Positions 1 through 46,636 of a stretch of DNA of 46,636 nucleotides are shown here, piece after piece (the first letter of the stretch is position 1; the number at the start of each line of letters is the position of its first letter). Below the pieces are notes generated by a model. That model had not been told where the DNA came from and made no database searches. It was given only the letters and a program-made list of their open reading frames with translations. The position numbers and the translations under genes are program-made. The stretch comes from Synechococcus sp. AG-683-C23 (GTDB lineage: Bacteria; Cyanobacteriota; Cyanobacteriia; PCC-6307; Cyanobiaceae): NCBI GenBank assembly GCA_003208835.1, contig QCVD01000019.1, positions 1 to 46,636 of the forward strand. The letters are read 5' to 3'.

Positions 1-72
1 TCACTTCGAGTCAGTGTTCCGAGCTCCTTCGATCTGACCTTGGAACCCTGTTTTGTGAAGTCCCGTTGAGAT

Positions 73-208
73 GGGGAGGGGGGTTTCCTTCACCTGGGAC
101 CCTGGTGGGGACCCAAGCTAAGACGCCCCAGTCATACCAATGGATTGTAAAGAAAACCTTCGCCTTCATAACCCGAAGGTCGGGAGTTCAAATCTCCCCT
201 CTCCACCA
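73..208 (+). ncRNA. tRNA-like CCA-ending RNA (3' half of a CAU tRNA)
   Basis: Positions 165-208 read as the 3' half of a CAU-anticodon tRNA: a seven-base anticodon loop (165-171, CAT at 167-169), a five-base variable loop, a T-arm with loop TTCAAAT (187-193), discriminator A205 and an encoded CCA (206-208). No normal 5' half (acceptor plus D-arm) precedes it. Instead GGGGAGG at 73-79 can pair with CCTCTCC at 198-204, placing a G-U pair at the third position, and 82-93 can pair with 147-158 (10 of 12 pairs). T-stem plus acceptor total 11 rather than 12 pairs. A terminator follows directly. It resembles an initiator tRNA 3' half, but could be a tRNA remnant, an island attachment scar, or an RNA whose 5' part lies outside the window. 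The 5' end given is inferred from pairing only. Confidence 0.4.
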
Positions 209-224
209 AATCTGATTGAATTTG

Positions 225-4986: not shown

Positions 4987-6564
4987 TTGGTCATGGCCAA
5001 GCGATCCAGTTCCACTTTGGTGAATCAGTGGTTCTCCAATCCCGGCAAAGACCTGCTTTCAGGGTTGGTCGTCGCCTTCGCGATGATTCCTGAGGCGATT
5101 GCGTTCTCCGGAATTGCTGGGGTTGATCCCAAGGTCGGGCTTTTTGGAGCCTTTTGTCTGTCCTTAACGATTGCGGTCGTTGGCGGACGGATGGCGATGA
5201 TTACGTCTGCGACAGGATCGACAGCTTTGTTGATGACTGGCCTTGTGGCCAGTGGTGAGGGGATCGGCCCTGGCTTAGGGGTGAAATATTTGTTGGTGGC
5301 TGGTCTTGTGACCGGGGTGCTTCAGATTCTCTGGGGTTACATGCGCTTAGCCGATCAGATGCGCTTTGTTCCCCAAGGGGTGCTCAGCGGATTTGTGAAT
5401 GCCTTGGCATTGTTGATCTTCCAAGCGCAGCTTCCCCAACTTGGTTTTGGCGGTGGGCATGGTGAGGGAGGTGATCATGCGGCGGGTCTGTTGTTGCCCC
5501 ATGGCGGCCAGGTCTCGGTGGTGTGGGCTTTGGTGGTTTTAGGGCTCGTGATCATTTATGGGTTGCCAAGGTTGACGCGGGTTATCCCTTCACAGCTGGT
5601 GGCGATCGTTGTGCTGACGGCCATCAGCATCGGGTTCCATTTCGATATTCCGACGGTCAGCAGCCTGGGCAATCTTCCGGATGGCTTACCCAGCCTTGGC
5701 ATTCCTTTCGGTCAAGGCAATGGAGGTGTGCCGTTCAACCTCGAAACCCTTGGCTTGGTCTTGCCGACCGCTTTGGCTATCTCGTTAGTGGGCTTGATGG
5801 AAAGCTTTCTGACCCAAGACATCCTTGACGACAAAACTGATTCAACCTCCAACAAAAACGTAGAAGCCCGCGGTCAAGGCATCGCCAATATCGTCTCTTC
5901 GCTATTTGGCGGCATGGCTGGCTGCGCATTGGTTGGTCAATCCGTCATGAACATCGACAACGGCGGCAGAACTCGCCTTTCAACATTCTTCTCAGGAGTC
6001 AGTTTGCTGGCCATGATCCTGTTGGCGGGTTCCTGGTTGAAGCAGATTCCCATGGCTGCTTTGGTGGCCGTGATGATCAGCATTGCGGTCAGTACTGCCG
6101 ATATCAATGGCCTGCGCAATGTGCAACGGATTCCAAAGAGCGACACCTCGGTAATGCTGATGACGTTTGCGGTCACCATGCTCACCACTCCGCACAACTT
6201 GGCACTTGGGGTGTTGGCCGGTGTTGCCCTTGCGGGCATCTTGTTCAGCCGCAAAGTTGCCAAGGTGATTCGGGTGGAATCAGAAGAGATCAGTGCTCAA
6301 GAACGCCACTACCGGGTAATTGGTCAGTTGTTTTTTGTAAGCACCATCTATTTCGTTCAAGGTTTTGATTTGCATGATCATCCCGAACGAATCAGTATCG
6401 ACCTCTCTAAGGCCCATATCTGGGATCAAAGTGGTGTAACAGCCCTTGATCAAGTGATCCGAAAGTTACGTCTTGGTGGGTCAGAGGTCACCGTGGTGGG
6501 CATGAATCAAGAAACTCTTGATTTGTTTGAACGAATCGGAGGACAAGAGTCCGCCCATACTTAG
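4987..6564 (+). CDS. SulP-family anion transporter with STAS domain
   Basis: A 525-residue SulP (SLC26) membrane carrier. About ten to twelve hydrophobic segments run from residue 20 to about 425; the early motif [16 protein letters not shown] and the later [16 protein letters not shown] are typical of the bicarbonate/sulfate/dicarboxylate carriers of the family. A His/Gly-rich loop ([13 protein letters not shown]) sits near residue 160. The C-terminus is a STAS domain containing [16 protein letters not shown]. The sequence clearly differs from BicA, whose N-terminal part occurs at 44.4 kb, so bicarbonate transport should not be assumed; sulfate or another anion is equally possible. The start may be the ATG at 4987 or the one two codons downstream. 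Confidence 0.85.
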
Positions 6565-27106: not shown

Positions 27107-27323
27107 TGATTCGAACCTGTCCAGATCCTCATCTTGACAGATTCCTTCAAAAATCCTGCACCATGGGTTGCTGATTAGAAAGGCTATTCTTCTGGCCCAT
27201 AAAAGAACGCTCAACAGGTTGCTCAGTTTCCACTCCCGTTATTGAGAAGGGAAGGTGGGGAAATTTCAATAAACTCCACGAGCCCGCTTCGTATTTTTTA
27301 CGCGTCGTGCCAGCGTTAGACGA

Positions 27324-27902
27324 TTGTTGGAGTTCATCTTGTTGGTCTCGATCCGCTCAGCATTCTTGGTGGCTCTTTTATGCGTTGTTGGATGCTCAGA
27401 TTCAGCAGAAACCCGATCTCCGCAGATGGTTCAAGCTGCACAAGATCAGGCTACGAACTCAGTGGTTCTGCCTGGTCAAGCGGGGCCAACATCAGAGCGT
27501 CCTGAGGCAGAAACCCTGCGCTTAACCATGCGAAGAACCAACGACCTCTTCCCTGATGGCAACAGTGTTTGGCTGGTGGAATTGCATAGTGATGCGTCCC
27601 TGTTGGCCAGCTGGACAGCCGCCAGTGGGATTGCGCAACGTCAAACTTCTGATCGCTTGTGGAGTCCTGGAAATGCTTCCCCGTTACCGGCTGGAACCTA
27701 TCGTCTTGGCGCGCCGGAACCTTGGGGGGATGACCTTTGGTTCGATCTTCAGCCTCGTTTTGAGACCACACGTAGTGCCTTGGGTGTTCACCGCTGTTAT
27801 CCAGGGACCGGATGTATCTGTATCCCAAGCCGCACTGACATTGATGCATTAGCTGGCTGGGTGAAGATGGCTGAACTGCGTGAGATTACGGTGAGCAATT
27901 AA
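27324..27902 (+). CDS. Lipoprotein with L,D-transpeptidase-like C-terminus
   Basis: A 192-residue protein. The N-terminus is a lipoprotein signal ending in the lipobox VVGC. A Ser/Gln-rich linker leads to a C-terminal domain in which SALGVHRCYPGTGCICIP followed by LAGWVKMAELREITV resembles the active-site end of L,D-transpeptidase (YkuD-like or related small) enzymes, where a His is followed by a Gly-Cys-Ile nucleophile segment. Here the segment reads GTGCICIP with an extra Cys. The domain is short, and I cannot confirm catalysis. The start is a TTG near 27324; periplasmic anchoring in the inner or outer membrane is predicted. Confidence 0.6.
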   Translation: MLEFILLVSIRSAFLVALLCVVGCSDSAETRSPQMVQAAQDQATNSVVLPGQAGPTSERPEAETLRLTMRRTNDLFPDGNSVWLVELHSDASLLASWTAASGIAQRQTSDRLWSPGNASPLPAGTYRLGAPEPWGDDLWFDLQPRFETTRSALGVHRCYPGTGCICIPSRTDIDALAGWVKMAELREITVSN

Positions 27903-28188
27903 TATATTTTATTCATTTTTTGGGATAAATAGTTGATCTTGGCTTTGCTTTCATGGTTTATTTTTGATTCAAAGATCCTCGCCTCTTGATTGACTCTCTG
28001 GACGTGCAGATAGGTTTCATTGAAATAGAATAGTGTGGTTTGATTTGGGTATCATCAAATTTTGCCTTGGGTGTTGATTAGAGTGGTTTCACATGACGTT
28101 GCGGTTGAATCGTTTTTGTTGACAGAGCGCTTCATTGAATTATTATATTTTCATGCTTTCTGGTGTTGTAAAAGAATCTATCTACCAT
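27903..28188. other. AT-rich intergenic stretch
   Basis: These 286 bp are visibly AT-richer than the flanking genes. The frame of the following small membrane protein is open from 28135, but I see no other gene, RNA or strong hairpin here. It marks the left edge of a 2.3-kb accessory region of very small ORFs. Confidence 0.4.
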
Positions 28189-28413
28189 ATGAGAATATTC
28201 TTTTTGACATCATCTGAACTTAGGTTTGCTCTTAAGGGCTTTGCGCTGAAGGTGATTCTATTTTTTGTGATTGAGTTTCTAGTCTGTCAGCTTGATGATT
28301 CGCGTGCTGCTTGTCGGCTTGTCGAGCGTGGATTTTTCCCCTCCCTCGCCGTATTTGCTGTGATGGATCTTCTGGTGATTCCTCGGCTTCGCCGCCGTAT
28401 CAAGGCTCGCTGA
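28189..28413 (+). CDS. Small membrane protein, unknown
   Basis: A 74-residue frame from the ATG at 28189 (MRIFFLTSSELRF), with a hydrophobic helix (VILFFVIEFLVC) near residue 25, a loop, and a second weaker hydrophobic segment (LAVFAVMDLLVIP) before a basic end (RLRRRIKAR). This positive-inside pattern suggests two membrane passes. Starts further upstream (28153, 28135) are possible. No family known. Confidence 0.5.
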   Translation: MRIFFLTSSELRFALKGFALKVILFFVIEFLVCQLDDSRAACRLVERGFFPSLAVFAVMDLLVIPRLRRRIKAR

Positions 28414-28500
28414 TGGATCAATGTGCAGGGTGGGTTTTCCCCACGCTTTGAGTGCACTGAGGAAATTGTTGTCTTGTAAAGTTGTCTTTTAGAAATTTCC

Positions 28501-28677
28501 ATGAATAAAGCGATAGGCCCTATTCGTCGCGCTTCTATCTATGGATCGGTCAGCTACTTAGGCCTTATTTTAATAAACAATAGCAATCTCGAACTGCCCA
28601 GTATGTGGATTGCGTATCTTCCAATGTTTATAGGTGTCTATGCCCTAACGCAATGGGTTGACCGTCGCTTTAGTTGA
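28501..28677 (+). CDS. Tiny membrane protein, unknown
   Basis: A 58-residue frame starting MNKAIGPIRRAS. It has two hydrophobic stretches (SYLGLILI and WIAYLPMFIGVYAL) separated by a polar loop and ends WVDRRFS. The gene follows the previous small membrane protein by 87 bp on the same strand. The reading is tidy and protein-like, but there is no known family. Confidence 0.4.
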   Translation: MNKAIGPIRRASIYGSVSYLGLILINNSNLELPSMWIAYLPMFIGVYALTQWVDRRFS

Positions 28678-28734
28678 TTCAGATCTTTAAGTAATTTTCC
28701 ATTCTAGATCAATAATTTGCTTAGTTCTGAGTTT

Positions 28735-28769
28735 TTGAACATTTCAGAGATGATGTCTGAAATGCTCAA
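28735..28769. repeat. Inverted repeat (hairpin)
   Basis: CATTTCAGA (28740-28748) and TCTGAAATG (28756-28764) form a perfect 9-bp stem with a seven-base loop; TTGA and TCAA extend it after one mismatch. It sits in the gap between the tiny plus-strand gene and the end of the 44-residue minus-strand gene, where it could end either transcript, though no long T-run follows. Confidence 0.5.
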
Positions 28770-28792
28770 AATATCTTCCTGACGCTTAATGG

Positions 28793-28927
28793 TTACCCAT
28801 TAAGAGAATAAGCATTCGCTACTCCCCAAACAGCGAGCGCCGTAATGGATGCAAAGACGACAGCTGTCCATGCTGCTAGCTCAGCCTGTTGTCCTTGATT
28901 TTGCGAAGCCTGAAGACGACGTGCCAT
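28793..28927 (-). CDS. 44-residue single-pass membrane protein
   Basis: A short frame starting MARRLQASQNQGQQAELAAW, then a single hydrophobic helix (TAVVFASITALAVWGVANAY) and a SLNG end. The layout, a short polar N-terminus and one membrane helix, is that of the many tiny subunits of photosynthetic and respiratory complexes, but I cannot match it to a known Psb, Psa, Pet or Ndh subunit or to a high-light-inducible protein. Too short for most gene finders. Confidence 0.5.
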   Translation of the reverse strand: MARRLQASQNQGQQAELAAWTAVVFASITALAVWGVANAYSLNG

Positions 28928-29017
28928 GGAGATTGATTTCAACTCTTCATGTTTGGCTCAGGATGATGTCTCAAATCAAGGAATGTGACCAAACCAGGAC
29001 GATGTTATGAGATTCAT

Positions 29018-29051
29018 GCTGATGGGATCCCTGTTAGACGGGATCATCAGC
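29018..29051. repeat. Bulged inverted repeat
   Basis: GATCCC (29026-29031) pairs with GGGATC (29040-29045), and GCTGAT (29018-29023) with ATCAGC (29046-29051), leaving a GG bulge and an eight-base loop. CCTTTT follows within three bases on the plus strand. Possible transcription terminator or processed RNA hairpin. Confidence 0.4.
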
Positions 29052-29148
29052 ACCTTTTCGTCGTTTTATTGTTGCCTTGGTGGAATATTTGTGAATCTAA
29101 AATGTCAATCAATATAGATGCAATAGTTAAAGATCTTGGTGGGCACGC

Positions 29149-29376
29149 TTACTGGTCTGGCTGCTCAGATTTTAATTTGGCAACAGCTTCATTTTCAGCG
29201 CGTTCTTTTAATACTCTTTTGGAAATACTTGCCACAGTAATACCTTGTTGATTTCTCAGAATAACGGCATCAATTCCAGTTGTACTTTTTGACAAATCGA
29301 TATCTGAAGCTGATTGGATTTTGCCAGTGCTTATGGCGAATTGAATGGCAGTGTTGAAAGAGCTCGTGTCTGCCAT
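29149..29376 (-). CDS. Small soluble hypothetical protein
   Basis: A 75-residue protein starting MADTSSFNTAIQFAISTG, with the internal segment DIDLSKSTTGIDAVILRNQQGITVASISKRVL and a charged C-terminus. It reads as a real, conserved-style protein of the marine Synechococcus accessory set, but I know no family. No signal peptide or membrane helix. Role unknown. Confidence 0.55.
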   Translation of the reverse strand: MADTSSFNTAIQFAISTGKIQSASDIDLSKSTTGIDAVILRNQQGITVASISKRVLKERAENEAVAKLKSEQPDQ

Positions 29377-41662: not shown

Positions 41663-43021
41663 ATGGAATTGCCTTTTGACTTGGTTGTGCTTGGAGCTGG
41701 TTCAGGTGGACTTGCTGCGGCTAAACGGGCGGCGAGCTATGGCGCGCGCGTGGCCATCCTGGAGGGTGATCGCGTTGGTGGTACCTGCGTGATCCGCGGT
41801 TGCGTTCCTAAGAAACTGCTGGTTTATGGCGCTCAAGCACGGCATCAACTGGCCGATGCCCCTGCTTATGGCCTCAAGCTCGGCTCCATTCAGTCCGATG
41901 TTCCGGAGCTGCTGCGACGTGTGCGCTCGGAGGTGGACCGCCTCAACACACTTCACTTGGGCTTTCTTGAGAAAGCTGGTGTGACGCTGATCTCTGGGTG
42001 GGGGCGGTTCACTGGACCCCACAACATTGGTATATCGCAACAGCGTGGCGGAGCGATCAGTGAAGAGGTCATTGCATCTCGGTTCCTTGTCGCCGTTGGT
42101 GGTCGGCCGGCGCGTCCGCAAATTCCTGGGATTGAGAAGACCTGGGTGAGTGATGACATGTTTGAGCTTGAAGATGTCCCCTCTTCGGTTTTGGTCGTGG
42201 GGGCAGGCTTCATTGCCTGTGAATTTGCTTGCATCTTGCGGGGCCTTGGTGTTTCGGTGACGCAGGTCGTGCGGGGGGCAAGGCTGTTAAGGGGGTTTGA
42301 TACCGAATTGGCCACTGCCGTACTCGAAGGGATGCGGGATAGCGGGATTGAGGTGGTGTTTGATCAAACGGTCATCGCAGTGGAGGGAGACCCTGGCGCG
42401 CTTACTGCGCAGCTCTCCGATGGAACCTCGAGAGCTTGTGGTGGTGTTCTGATGGCGACAGGGCGTCGTCCCTGGCTGCATGATCTTGGCTTGCAAGAAG
42501 CCGGTATCAACATCGAGGCTGGGCGCATCAAGGTGGACTCCGATTCATACACGTCGGTTTCTCATATTGCTGCTGTTGGGGATGTCACAGACCGAGTGAA
42601 TCTCACTCCGGTTGCGATCGACGAAGGACGTGCATTTGCCGATAGTGCTTTTGGTACTCGTCACCGTCGTGTTGACCATGAGCTGGTCGCAAGTGCTGTC
42701 TTTAGTGACCCACAATTGGCGACGGTCGGTTTATCGGAAGAGGCTGCAATTGAGCGTTTTGGCGCTGAGGGGGTTGTTGTACATCGTGCCCGCTTCCGCT
42801 CGATGTCTCGGGCTTTGCCTGCTTCGGGTCCCCGATGTTTGCTCAAATTGGTGCTCGAGAAGGCTAGTGATCGTGTGCTGGGATGCCACATGGTGGGTGA
42901 GCACGCGGCGGAAATCATTCAAATGGCGGCAATTGCTGTGGGTATGGGAGCAACCAAAGCAGATTTTGATCGCACCATGGCACTCCATCCCTCCGTGTCT
43001 GAGGAGTTTGTGACCATGTGA
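41663..43021 (+). CDS. gor: Glutathione-disulfide reductase
   Basis: A 452-residue flavoenzyme that reduces GSSG with a pyridine nucleotide. FAD motif GAGSGGLAAAKRAA (11-24), redox disulfide C42/C47 in GGTCVIRGCVPKKL, second Rossmann region VLVVGAGFIACEFACIL, and the dimerisation domain with the catalytic His-Glu near the end (ALHPSVSEEF). The length is normal. It is divergent from the large GST; a single promoter region of 158 bp serves both, which fits a shared glutathione role. Confidence 0.94.
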   Translation: MELPFDLVVLGAGSGGLAAAKRAASYGARVAILEGDRVGGTCVIRGCVPKKLLVYGAQARHQLADAPAYGLKLGSIQSDVPELLRRVRSEVDRLNTLHLGFLEKAGVTLISGWGRFTGPHNIGISQQRGGAISEEVIASRFLVAVGGRPARPQIPGIEKTWVSDDMFELEDVPSSVLVVGAGFIACEFACILRGLGVSVTQVVRGARLLRGFDTELATAVLEGMRDSGIEVVFDQTVIAVEGDPGALTAQLSDGTSRACGGVLMATGRRPWLHDLGLQEAGINIEAGRIKVDSDSYTSVSHIAAVGDVTDRVNLTPVAIDEGRAFADSAFGTRHRRVDHELVASAVFSDPQLATVGLSEEAAIERFGAEGVVVHRARFRSMSRALPASGPRCLLKLVLEKASDRVLGCHMVGEHAAEIIQMAAIAVGMGATKADFDRTMALHPSVSEEFVTM

Positions 43022-43306
43022 GTGGGATGATTTCAAGCTTGAGGAATATCTTTATTTTTGAAATTATTGATGAGGCTTGTTTGCATTTTTTGATCTAATT
43101 TTAGGAATATTGCGATTGTCTTCCGCGGAGGGACTATGCGGAGGAATGATATTTCAGTAAAGGGTTTATTTGAAAATCTGTCGATGAATTAATAATTATT
43201 TCGTTGTTAATAGTAGGCACTGTATTTCCAATATTAAACATTTAAATGTATCGAAAATATATTCATTTGGGTCTCTATCAGGATTGTTGGTTCTGTTGAA
43301 ATCAAC
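43022..43306. other. AT-rich intergenic stretch
   Basis: A 285-bp gap between the convergent gor and cation exchanger genes, visibly AT-richer than its surroundings. I see no ORF of note or tRNA. A short CCGC/GCGG repeat (about 43122-43141) might form a hairpin, but there is no clean terminator. Confidence 0.35.
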
Positions 43307-44392
43307 TCATCGACTCGTTCGCCAATACACCACTGCTTGCGTGATGATCGTGATCATCACTACAGGGAGAACCAAGCAAAGCATCACCAATCTGAATTCA
43401 TCAGACCAACTGGAGAGGTTTGTTCGGGGAAGAACGTTGTCAACGATGTATAAAAAATAGAGTCCAAGCAACAACCCACCTTCCAGTCGACTGATGCGTC
43501 CGCGAGTCCAGAAGATTGGTAGGCAGGCCAGGCTCGTCAGCAGCATCACCGGCAAGTCGTCATGAATAAGGTCCGGCGTCACATTCAGTCCCTGACTACC
43601 AGTGACCAATGCGGTTCCTCCCAGAACAAGCATCAGGTTGAGAAGGCAACTACCAACAACGTTGCCGATGGCTAGATCGGTCCGACCTCGAAGGGCTGCA
43701 ACGAGTGAGGTAATCAGTTCCGGCATGGAGGTGCCGGCCGACACGATGGTCAATCCGATGACGGCTTCACTCACACCAAGAAGTGATGCAGCGCTAGTGG
43801 CACCACTCACCAGCACTTTGGATCCAACCGTGAGAACCGCGATGCCCGCGATCAGCTTGAGAACAGCCCGATGCCAACCGCCTTCTGCGGCGTTGTCTTC
43901 GATGTCTGGTTCTGCACCTTCGCTGTCATCCGGTTGTTCCCTCGCGGTTCGAATTTCCCAAATGGTGTTGATGATCAGCCCTACCAGGAGTGCAAGTCCT
44001 GCTTGCCAGGTCACGCGTCCTGCGGATGCCATCCCCCACACGGCGGCTGAGACGGCAATCATCAGAGGTACATCTCGGCGTACAAGCCGACTCTCAACAC
44101 GCAGGGGCAGCACCAACGCACTGCTTCCCAGTACCACCATCACGTTGAAGATATTGCTGCCCACCACGTTGCTTAGGGCAAGAGCATCAGACCCTTGTAA
44201 TACCGAATTGAGACTCACAAAGAGCTCGGGCGCACTAGTTCCCAGTGACACCACGGTGAGACCAATCACCAGCTGAGGAATTCCGAAAATCACGGCCAGG
44301 GCGATGGAGCCCTGAACAAAAAGTTCTCCACCGCCGAACAGCAGAGCGATGCCAATCAGAACTTCGATCGTGGCCTGTAGGAATTCAGGCAT
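43307..44392 (-). CDS. CaCA-family Ca2+/cation antiporter
   Basis: A 361-residue inner-membrane exchanger with ten or so hydrophobic segments and the two inverted alpha-repeats: VVSLGTSAPELFVSL near residue 55 and IVSAGTSMPELITSL near residue 235, each with the ion-binding Pro-Glu. The central acidic cytosolic loop (EQPDDSEGAEPDIEDN) separates the halves. Members export Ca2+ in exchange for Na+ or H+. Convergent with gor and divergent from the bicA fragment. Confidence 0.92.
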   Translation of the reverse strand: MPEFLQATIEVLIGIALLFGGGELFVQGSIALAVIFGIPQLVIGLTVVSLGTSAPELFVSLNSVLQGSDALALSNVVGSNIFNVMVVLGSSALVLPLRVESRLVRRDVPLMIAVSAAVWGMASAGRVTWQAGLALLVGLIINTIWEIRTAREQPDDSEGAEPDIEDNAAEGGWHRAVLKLIAGIAVLTVGSKVLVSGATSAASLLGVSEAVIGLTIVSAGTSMPELITSLVAALRGRTDLAIGNVVGSCLLNLMLVLGGTALVTGSQGLNVTPDLIHDDLPVMLLTSLACLPIFWTRGRISRLEGGLLLGLYFLYIVDNVLPRTNLSSWSDEFRLVMLCLVLPVVMITIITQAVVYWRTSR

Positions 44393-44407
44393 GGAAAACC
44401 GGGAAGT

Positions 44408-44803
44408 TTGGGGGATTCTGCTTTGCCGAGAACCGATCTAAGGTCGTTAGCTACGGGGCAGAGTCACGATTTGTTGAATCGCATCAACGCCACGAACCTA
44501 CGGGGTGATGCCTTCGGTGGGGTTACCGCTGCTGTGATTGCTTTGCCGATGGCTTTGGCTTTCGGTGTGGCTGCCACAGGTGACCCGGCTCCAGGGCTTT
44601 GGGGAGCTGTGATCATTGGTCTTGTGGCCGCTGTGTTCGGGGGGACTCCCACCCTGATCTCGGAGCCCACCGGTCCGATGACGGTTGTGTTCACTTCCGT
44701 GATCTTGAGCTTTACGGCCACGGCCCCAGATAAAGAAACGGCGATGGCGATGGCCTTCACCGTGGTGATCCTCGCCGGACTCTTTCAGATCCTTTTTGGT
44801 GTG
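44408..44803 (+). pseudogene. bicA: bicA, 5' part only (truncated)
   Basis: This is the N-terminal ~110-130 residues of a BicA-type SulP sodium-dependent bicarbonate transporter: RGDAFGGVTAAVIALPMALAFG, then LWGAVIIGLVAAVFGGTPTL and ISEPTGPMTVVFTSVILSFTA. It is clear through [10 protein letters not shown] (ending about 44800). Family members continue for another ~430 residues. After 44803 the frame reads through the antisense strand of trpA, which has no relation to SulP proteins. The true start is uncertain: the frame is open from a TTG at 44408, and the homologous part begins near 44471. Gene is broken by the junction described in the findings; no intact bicA lies elsewhere in the window. 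Confidence 0.85.
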
Positions 44804-45045
44804 GTGCCAGCCGCCAGAGCTCGTGCGGCTGCAGCTTGGATCACAGGTCCATCCGCAAGAGGATCGCTGTAGGGCATTCCAAGCTCCACCATGTCTGCAC
44901 CAGAAGCTTGGAGACTGAGCAACACCTCCGCAGTAACGGACAAATCAGGATCTCCGGCCATCAAAAATGGCATGAGGGCCATGCGGCCTTCTCGCTTCAG
45001 CTGTTCGAAACGCAGCGCGATGGGCGATGACTGCTGACTCGACAT
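44785..45045 (-). pseudogene. trpA: trpA, 5' part only (truncated)
   Basis: The first 86 residues of tryptophan synthase alpha chain. It includes [13 protein letters not shown] and the catalytic region [19 protein letters not shown], with the Glu and Asp equivalent to E. coli E49 and D60. The match runs through AAGTTPKR, then a stop occurs two codons later at 44785. A full protein is about 265 residues. It lies 34 bp behind the DUF3007 gene on the same strand, as expected for its normal context, so its upstream side is native and its 3' side is not. Without an intact copy the cell could not complete the indole-glycerol phosphate step. Confidence 0.88.
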
Positions 45046-45079
45046 CTCGACGGTTCAACTTGGACGACACCTGCCAAGC

Positions 45080-45451
45080 CTATGGCTCAGCAGAGGTGGG
45101 GTCGTTGACAGAGCTTGTGGAAGGGGCATCGCCTCCTTCGACACCGATACGACGGAGCAAGGCCTGCTGTTCGTCCGCTGGGAGGGCATCAAAGCGGGCT
45201 TGGATGGCGTCAGCGGCAATTTCGTCGTAGACCCCGCGATAGCGGCGACGCTGCTCCATGTAGGTCATCTGGCCTGTGACAACACGAAAGAGATAAGACC
45301 CTGTCCACATGACCACGATCAGCACCAACAGGGTCTGAGCCGCAATACCGGCGGAGAAACCTTGGAAACCAGCAGCCTGAAAACCCACTTGACCGAGGCC
45401 ACCAATCAGGAGGACCGCCAGGCCGATCAGCAGAACTTTTCCTCGCGTCAA
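45080..45451 (-). CDS. DUF3007 membrane protein
   Basis: A 123-residue protein with two membrane helices (VLLIGLAVLLIGGLGQVGF and TLLVLIVVMWTGSYLF), then a cytosolic region MTYMEQRRRYRGVYDEI and a variable acidic tail. This is the cyanobacterial/plastid DUF3007 family, found beside ndhL, whose function is unknown. One base separates it from the ndhL stop, so the two are co-transcribed and perhaps work together at the thylakoid membrane. Confidence 0.82.
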   Translation of the reverse strand: MTRGKVLLIGLAVLLIGGLGQVGFQAAGFQGFSAGIAAQTLLVLIVVMWTGSYLFRVVTGQMTYMEQRRRYRGVYDEIAADAIQARFDALPADEQQALLRRIGVEGGDAPSTSSVNDPTSAEP

Positions 45452-45452
45452 C

Positions 45453-45704
45453 TCAAACCTCTCCCTGACCGCTTAGGCGGAGGTTGATGAAGGGAGCAAA
45501 CACGATCATTCCCGGAAAGAAAAGGAACACGAGTCCGTAAACCCCTAACCGTTCGTACTTGCTCATGCGGTACCAACGCAGATTGATCCAGGCGTAAAGC
45601 GCTAGAGGAACAGCGACCAGGTAGGTGCCAAGCACCACCCCGTAGGCCAGCAGTACGAACAGCGTCTCCTGAGGGAATTGGCTTAAGAGGGCCTGAAAGT
45701 CCAA
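45453..45704 (-). CDS. ndhL: NDH-1 subunit L
   Basis: An 83-residue subunit of the cyanobacterial NAD(P)H dehydrogenase-like complex, which serves cyclic electron flow, respiration and inorganic carbon uptake. Two membrane helices ([19 protein letters not shown] and [17 protein letters not shown]) flank the conserved [16 protein letters not shown]. Length matches the family. It is divergent from the tRNA-Leu gene, with 40 bp between. Confidence 0.92.
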
Positions 45705-45744
45705 GATGTAAGGACAGGTGTCCTAAATCTAGGATGTCTGAAGA

Positions 45745-45830
45745 GGGGGCATGGCGGAATCGGTAGACGCACCAGACTTAAAATCTGTCGGCACGCAAGT
45801 GCTGTGGGGGTTCAAGTCCCCCTGCCCCCA
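45745..45830 (+). tRNA. tRNA-Leu (UAA)
   Basis: An 86-base class II tRNA. Acceptor GGGGGCA (45745-45751) pairs with TGCCCCC (45823-45829), discriminator A at 45830; a TAA anticodon sits in the loop CTTAAAA, there is a long variable arm, and the T-arm has loop TTCAAGT. CCA is not encoded. The anticodon loop carries no group I intron, which is present in this gene in many other cyanobacteria and in plastids. A possible -10 box (TAGGAT, 45730-45735) lies ten bases before it. Confidence 0.96.
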
Positions 45831-45839
45831 TCCGATTGA

Positions 45840-46142
45840 TCAAGACGGCAGTAAATCCGAGAGCTTGGTGCGAAATTCACCTTTCTGCATCCCGCCTTTC
45901 AACTCAGCATGGATGGTGAAATCGCCCTCAGGGTCAGTCACCAACAAGTAAGTGGGCCAGCCCATCCCTTCTTTATTCGGATACTGCTTCAAGAGGATCT
46001 TGCGGTACTTGCGATAAGCCTCTGTGTCTTGAAGCATCACTGAGACAAAGGTGCAGCCAAGTTCTTCCGCCACCTTTGCGTCGTAATGACTCATCCGATG
46101 GCAAGTACCGCAGTCCTCAGAGCTGAACTTGATCACGTGCAT
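45840..46142 (-). CDS. Thioredoxin-fold protein
   Basis: A 100-residue thioredoxin-like protein with the active-site CGTC (C11 and C14 in SSEDCGTCHRM) right after the first strand, and a cis-Pro in GWPTYLLV. The order and the short length fit the small cyanobacterial thioredoxin-domain proteins, probably a thiol-disulfide exchange or redox-sensing partner. From the ATG at 46142 the N-terminus is MHVIKF. It overlaps the 3' end of pyrC by ten bases, so it follows pyrC in one transcript. Confidence 0.85.
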   Translation of the reverse strand: MHVIKFSSEDCGTCHRMSHYDAKVAEELGCTFVSVMLQDTEAYRKYRKILLKQYPNKEGMGWPTYLLVTDPEGDFTIHAELKGGMQKGEFRTKLSDLLPS

Positions 46143-46636
46143 GGTTGAAGCCTCCAAGGGAGCGTCTCCCCAGCATGAAAGGGAACGAGCCCATTCACCA
46201 CATCTGGCACTAATTCGTCTTCACGTTGCAAGGTGACGAAACCTTCATTCACCGGTAAGCCATAAAACGCGGGTCCATGCAACGAGGCAAAGGCCTCAAG
46301 CCGATCAAGCTTGCCGTCTTGAGCGAAGGCCAGGGCATAGCTCTCCAATGCATGGGGAGCATTAAAAATGCCCGCACAACCACAGGACGTCTCCTTACCG
46401 GGTCTGGCGTGAGGAGCCGAATCTGTGCCGAGAAAAAAGCGCCTGTCACCGCTCATTGCCGCCCGTCGAAGGGCTAGACGATGACGTTCCCGTTTGGCCA
46501 CTGGCAAACAGAAAAAATCACTGCGAAGGCCGCCCGCAAACATGGCGTTGCGATTGATGTGGAGATGGTGAGGGGTAATCGTGGCCGCCAAATTTTGATC
46601 AGAGGAGCCCACAAAATCCACCGCCTGTTCTGTGGT
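46133..46636 (-). CDS. pyrC: Dihydroorotase, 3' part (runs off the window)
   Basis: The C-terminal ~165 residues of a class II dihydroorotase, which cyclises N-carbamoyl aspartate in pyrimidine synthesis. Visible are AATITPHHLHINRN (metal-ligand region), FFLGTDSAPHARPGKE with the catalytic Asp, and the C-terminal GLPVNEGFVTL. The frame stays open to the last base of the window, so the N-terminal half lies beyond it. The stop overlaps the thioredoxin-like start. Confidence 0.9.
   Translation of the reverse strand, partial: TTEQAVDFVGSSDQNLAATITPHHLHINRNAMFAGGLRSDFFCLPVAKRERHRLALRRAAMSGDRRFFLGTDSAPHARPGKETSCGCAGIFNAPHALESYALAFAQDGKLDRLEAFASLHGPAFYGLPVNEGFVTLQREDELVPDVVNGLVPFHAGETLPWRLQPCT

Follow-up and report, generated by a model that had tools for sequence, protein, structure and literature searches.

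Truncated bicA and trpA meet head to head near the end of a Synechococcus-like contig, very probably as a chimera of whole-genome amplification

The window analysed here is the whole of contig C19, 46,636 b in length, one of the 81 contigs of an assembly that totals 1,914,326 b, with listed values of 77.46 for completeness and 0.04 for contamination. To judge from its congeners and from the named records closest to its bicA fragment, the host is a Synechococcus-like picocyanobacterium, probably marine, and the DNA of the assembly was presumably amplified from a single cell. The last-numbered contig of the assembly is 2,114 b long, which, set against the marine single-cell pipeline in which contigs above 2,000 b are described as retained (PMC6122165, PMC5519541), is a hint of a single-cell assembly rather than proof of one. 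Close to the right end of the window two truncated genes, bicA and trpA, face each other across a short stretch of sequence that fits both of them. The features around this join are as follows.

41663-43021, plus strand: gor-like gene in the left arm, in normal order (collinear with the closed genomes G006 and G015, and placed as in other relatives); the name is that of the original prediction, given without a family search
43307-44392, minus strand: calcium/sodium antiporter in the left arm, in normal order (PF01699, 1.7e-57; TIGR00367)
44471-44803, plus strand: first fifth (5') of bicA, a bicarbonate transporter gene, truncated by the join (NF050096, positions 3-112 of 547)
44795-44803 (44791-44803 possible), no strand: junction fitting both genes (overlap of the G006 and G015 alignments; site comparison in 17 relatives)
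44795-45045, minus strand: first third (5') of trpA, truncated by the join and inverted with respect to relatives (TIGR00262, positions 1-73 of 256)
45080-45451, minus strand: DUF3007 gene in the inverted arm (PF11460, 2.2e-29; order in relatives)
45453-45704, minus strand: ndhL in the inverted arm (PF10716, 6.2e-28; order in relatives)
45745-45830, plus strand: tRNA-Leu(taa) in the inverted arm (ARAGORN; within the inverted G006 match)
45840-46157, minus strand: small, presumably thioredoxin-like gene in the inverted arm (syntenic in relatives), named from its CxxC motif and with no match in Pfam or NCBIfam
46133-46636, minus strand: 3' half of pyrC in the inverted arm, running off the contig end (TIGR00856, positions 172-341 of 341)

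On the plus strand bicA is recognisable up to 44803 and on the minus strand trpA starts at about 44795, so that both genes end at one point. The frame at 44408-44872 (plus strand) matches BicA over the listed profile positions only (1.1e-47), and the frame at 44785-45045 (minus strand) is likewise confined to the listed positions of TrpA (3.5e-26), with a further match to PF00290 (259 positions, 1.2e-27). When compared with the closed genome G006 the bicA and trpA pieces meet at 44802/44793 with 10 bases in common, and when compared with G015 they meet at 44803/44795 with 9 bases in common. At most 13 bases (44791-44803) fit both bicA on the plus strand and trpA on the minus strand, the upper figure being possible because the strain's own intact copies of the two genes are absent from the assembly. 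Among random inverted joins simulated in a G006 stretch (L116; 500,000 draws), at least 9 shared bases occur at a frequency of 5.2e-5 and at least 10 at 2.2e-5. The 12-mer at the junction has a single exact occurrence within the window. The original prediction, that bicA and trpA are truncated at the same point with some 10-13 bases fitting both, is thus borne out by the profile matches and the two alignments in its coordinates as well as in its count, the aligned overlap being 9 (G015) or 10 (G006) bases and the maximum 13.

The gene order of relatives identifies the right-hand segment as the inverted one. Positions 166-44802 of the window are collinear with both closed congeners (842932-888112 in G006), interrupted by four short unaligned gaps of 58-286 b of window sequence with respect to G006. 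Within this span, window 43306-44802 on the plus strand corresponds to G006 886616-888112 in the forward direction, and from 44793 to 46636 the window corresponds to G006 891767-889951, reversed. The two joined points, 888112 and 891767, lie 3,655 b apart in G006, and the contig ends inside pyrC 1,834 b past the join. The neighbourhood common to relatives consists of gor, the cation exchanger, bicA, pyrC, the small thioredoxin-like gene, ndhL, the DUF3007 gene and trpA, much as the original prediction had it, and the comparison with closed relatives agrees with its proposal of an inverted right-hand segment, which measures 1.83 kb. Of 30 relative loci, 21 carry trpA on the strand of bicA and downstream of it, with pyrC in the interval; 9 have no trpA hit in the stretch examined, and the two genes are opposed in none of the 30. 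Taking the relatives' order as the true one, the second segment of the join is inverted. A simple deletion between convergent genes was discarded, as bicA and trpA share one strand in relatives.

Two further observations were made during the comparison of gene order. Window 27183-29153 aligns poorly and with gaps to both closed relatives, at 74-81% identity compared with 86-87% around it. In the locus of a metagenome-assembled genome (Synechococcus sp. ARS1019, L107 3-2480) the gene to the left of gor is inverted relative to other loci, with its aligned pieces separated by 0.86 kb.

The left end of the contig is of a different nature. Window 1-165 occupies the place of the 5' half of a tRNA-Met gene in relatives and is followed by the 3' half of that gene. 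An intact tRNA-Met is present at C3:13-89, at the end of the contig that adjoins C19 on the left in the order of G006. Window 1-211 recurs at C48:4735-4943 (84%) and at C47:401-601 (78%), and this recurrence, together with the ending in the tRNA-Met 3' half, led to rejection of the left end as a third chimera. For the same reasons it resembles the attachment end of an element integrated at tRNA-Met between C3 and C19. Elements that integrate at tRNA genes are known from picocyanobacteria. On C47 (L148, 401-5661) the tRNA-Met 3' copy is followed by three overlapping frames and then by frames with AAA_25 and Prim-Pol domains, an arrangement that may represent a small integrative element. A Pfam search of the three frames adjoining the tRNA-Met copy returned no family and no integrase; perhaps, as a guess, they are a broken integrase.

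The original prediction had pointed to the rest of the assembly as a place where intact bicA and trpA might be found, and neither was found there. The assembly, which is 77% complete, has no other match to the trpA family, and it yielded neither the missing part of bicA, nor the 5' half of pyrC, nor the missing part of trpA, nor an orthologue of G006 888113-889950, the stretch skipped by the join. When the assembly was searched with the G006 sequence that starts at the bicA break and reaches 5.7 kb beyond the trpA break, the inverted piece and five short matches at 68-75% came up. The BicA model (NF050096) has two other matches, C30:5831-7477 (555 bits) and window 5032-6276 (168 bits), which score lower per position and are taken as probable SulP paralogues, so the genome would keep BicA-like paralogues. 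Across the genus, 28 of 33 congeners have an open bicA frame of at least 551 aa, and the other five, which lack a match, are 53-75% complete. The trpA family scores above its cut-off in 28 of 34 genomes, a set that includes the present one, scored as a miss; the four genomes without any trpA match are 53-75% complete, and in the other low scorer (G017) trpA lies at the end of its contig, with a match that runs to 9,963 on C64, 9,965 b in length. All 19 genus genomes that are at least 90% complete have a trpA match. In the present assembly trpB scores above its cut-off and has no internal stop. These results support the view that the missing parts of bicA and trpA are simply unassembled rather than lost.

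A second join of the same type was found on another contig of the assembly. On C39 (L210), bases 3-240 correspond to G006 913479-913242, reversed, and from base 244 onwards the contig follows G006 forward from 914052, making an abutting inverted join at 240-244, only 240 b from the contig end, between points 810 b apart. Both sides fall within one G006 frame of 1,599 aa, which we take to be TamB-like. Compared with G006 this join has zero shared bases, and three bases fit neither arm. For an estimate of frequency, 64 assembly stretches were compared with 479.5 kb of G006 and totals were taken over the 13 stretches in which more than 1,000 bases aligned, giving two abutting inverted joins (C19 and C39) in 221,623 aligned bases, so that one further join, C39:240-244, accompanies the bicA-trpA join among the 13 aligned stretches. 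The 24 relative loci, which mostly span the bicA-trpA neighbourhood only, gave none in 325,771 aligned bases. If the rates were equal, the chance of both joins landing in the present assembly would be about one in six, and the contrast of two against none is weak by itself. Three control loci from records named as single-cell (L035, L036 and L100) also contain no inverted join. Non-abutting pairs were left out of the count, namely one in the assembly (C13_L, 206 b at 76%, with 7.7 kb between its pieces) and one in the control set (L107, 204 b at 80%, with 0.86 kb between its pieces). More weight than these counts carry comes from the form of the C39 join itself, in which two pieces of one gene stand head to head with 0.8 kb skipped. 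Fold-back palindromes, considered as a sign of chimeras that needs no reference, were uninformative, with one pair (67 b, 88%, on C12) in 60 stretches.

The join at 44795-44803 is thus very probably a chimera that arose in whole-genome amplification by a phi29-type polymerase and afterwards entered the assembly. Lasken and Stockwell (2007, PMC1855051) describe chimeras of multiple displacement amplification (MDA) of which 406 of 475 (85%) were inverted, 337 of these 406 joining segments separated by less than 10 kb, with the sequence between them deleted; complementarity of 2-21 nt is given for more than 70% of chimeras, and for 93.5% of the inverted joins that span less than 10 kb. Their model is one in which displaced 3' ends re-prime on neighbouring displaced strands. 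The bicA-trpA join resembles the chimeras described there in its inverted second segment, in the 3,655 b (in G006) between the joined points with the stretch between them skipped, and in a short complement of 9-10 b (at most 13) that lies within the 2-21 nt range. It differs in that those chimeras were observed in single reads, whereas this join is known as an assembled contig whose amplification we infer. Under such a mechanism a new strand would have been synthesised across gor, the exchanger and the first part of bicA until its 3' end was displaced at about CTTTTTGGTGT. The displaced end would then have re-annealed to the near-perfect complement in trpA, some 3.7 kb away, probably on a displaced strand close by in the same branched molecule, and extension would have continued backwards through trpA, the DUF3007 gene, ndhL, tRNA-Leu and pyrC to the contig end. 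The chimera would not have been overridden because the region was presumably amplified thinly and a correct copy was lacking. The original prediction had held an artefact to be likelier than real loss of both genes, a preference that gains support from the gene order of relatives, from the C39 join, from gene parts that are merely unassembled and from the presence of trpB.

Some published figures bear on how expected such a join would be. In a benchmark of a marine single-cell pipeline 1.5 misassemblies per 100 kb were reported (PMC6122165), and one join in a 46.6 kb contig is therefore unsurprising. Single-cell assemblies of Prochlorococcus marinus tended to have the fewest misassemblies among the benchmarks reported in PMC5519541, a tendency that counts against a chimera, as does the lack of intact bicA or trpA elsewhere, which leaves the true arrangement not directly visible. 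In a literature search, no paper among the matches listed bears on the bicA-trpA join.

Alternatively, about 3.65 kb could really have been inverted between short inverted repeats lying within bicA and trpA, an event that would have broken both genes in the lineage of this cell, made it a tryptophan auxotroph without this BicA and placed the second breakpoint (bicA 3'/trpA 3') beyond the contig end. Inversions at short inverted repeats (microhomology) occur in bacterial chromosomes, and the present case resembles them in having two inverted repeats of 9-13 bases about 3.7 kb apart at the breakpoints. In the closest relatives the join sites are indeed near-identical inverted repeats (11 of 13 bases in G015, 10 of 13 in G006), and the assembly has no intact copy of either gene. 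However, the inverted order occurs in none of the 30 examined relative loci (9 of them with no trpA hit), trpA is kept by every near-complete genome of the genus, trpB is retained here, and a second join of the same type lies inside one gene on C39. Moreover, the sequence beyond the join is missing altogether from the assembly, so that loss of the remainder needs no inversion. Unlike microhomology inversions, this one would cut two genes of a conserved block, and a reciprocal breakpoint joining bicA 3' to trpA 3' was not found in an assembly that is itself only 77% complete. A real inversion is accordingly very improbable, and slightly more so in its full form, a cell-specific event that would have left a free-living marine cell naturally auxotrophic for tryptophan and devoid of this bicarbonate transporter. 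A programmed or phase-variable inversion was dismissed, since none of the seven neighbouring frames searched matches a recombinase family (one matches nothing) and, at fixed offsets, the two sites agree at 4-10 of 13 bases in the 15 relatives besides G006 and G015 among the 17 loci compared at the junction site.

Least probable of all is that no displacement amplification was involved and that the join is the work of the assembler alone or, in a metagenome bin, of chimeric molecules in the library. The fragmented, 77% complete state of the assembly and the existence of metagenome bins of close relatives would agree with it, but a k-mer assembler would not be expected to join on as few as the 9-13 bases shared here, and library chimeras, being rare, would not usually dominate a contig. 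An inversion within 4 kb is moreover the signature of amplification as PMC1855051 presents it.

By far the best reading is therefore that the bicA-trpA join is an artefact and not a real feature of the genome, and it matters only as a caution. Anyone who took the joins literally would be misled on gene loss or gene order in this assembly, as regards the missing parts of bicA, trpA and pyrC and the cut gene on C39, presumably TamB-like, and neither the last 1.83 kb of C19 nor the first 240 b of C39 should be treated as joined onward. There is no support for this cyanobacterium having lost BicA or the synthesis of tryptophan, and in the living cell bicA and trpA are most likely both intact.
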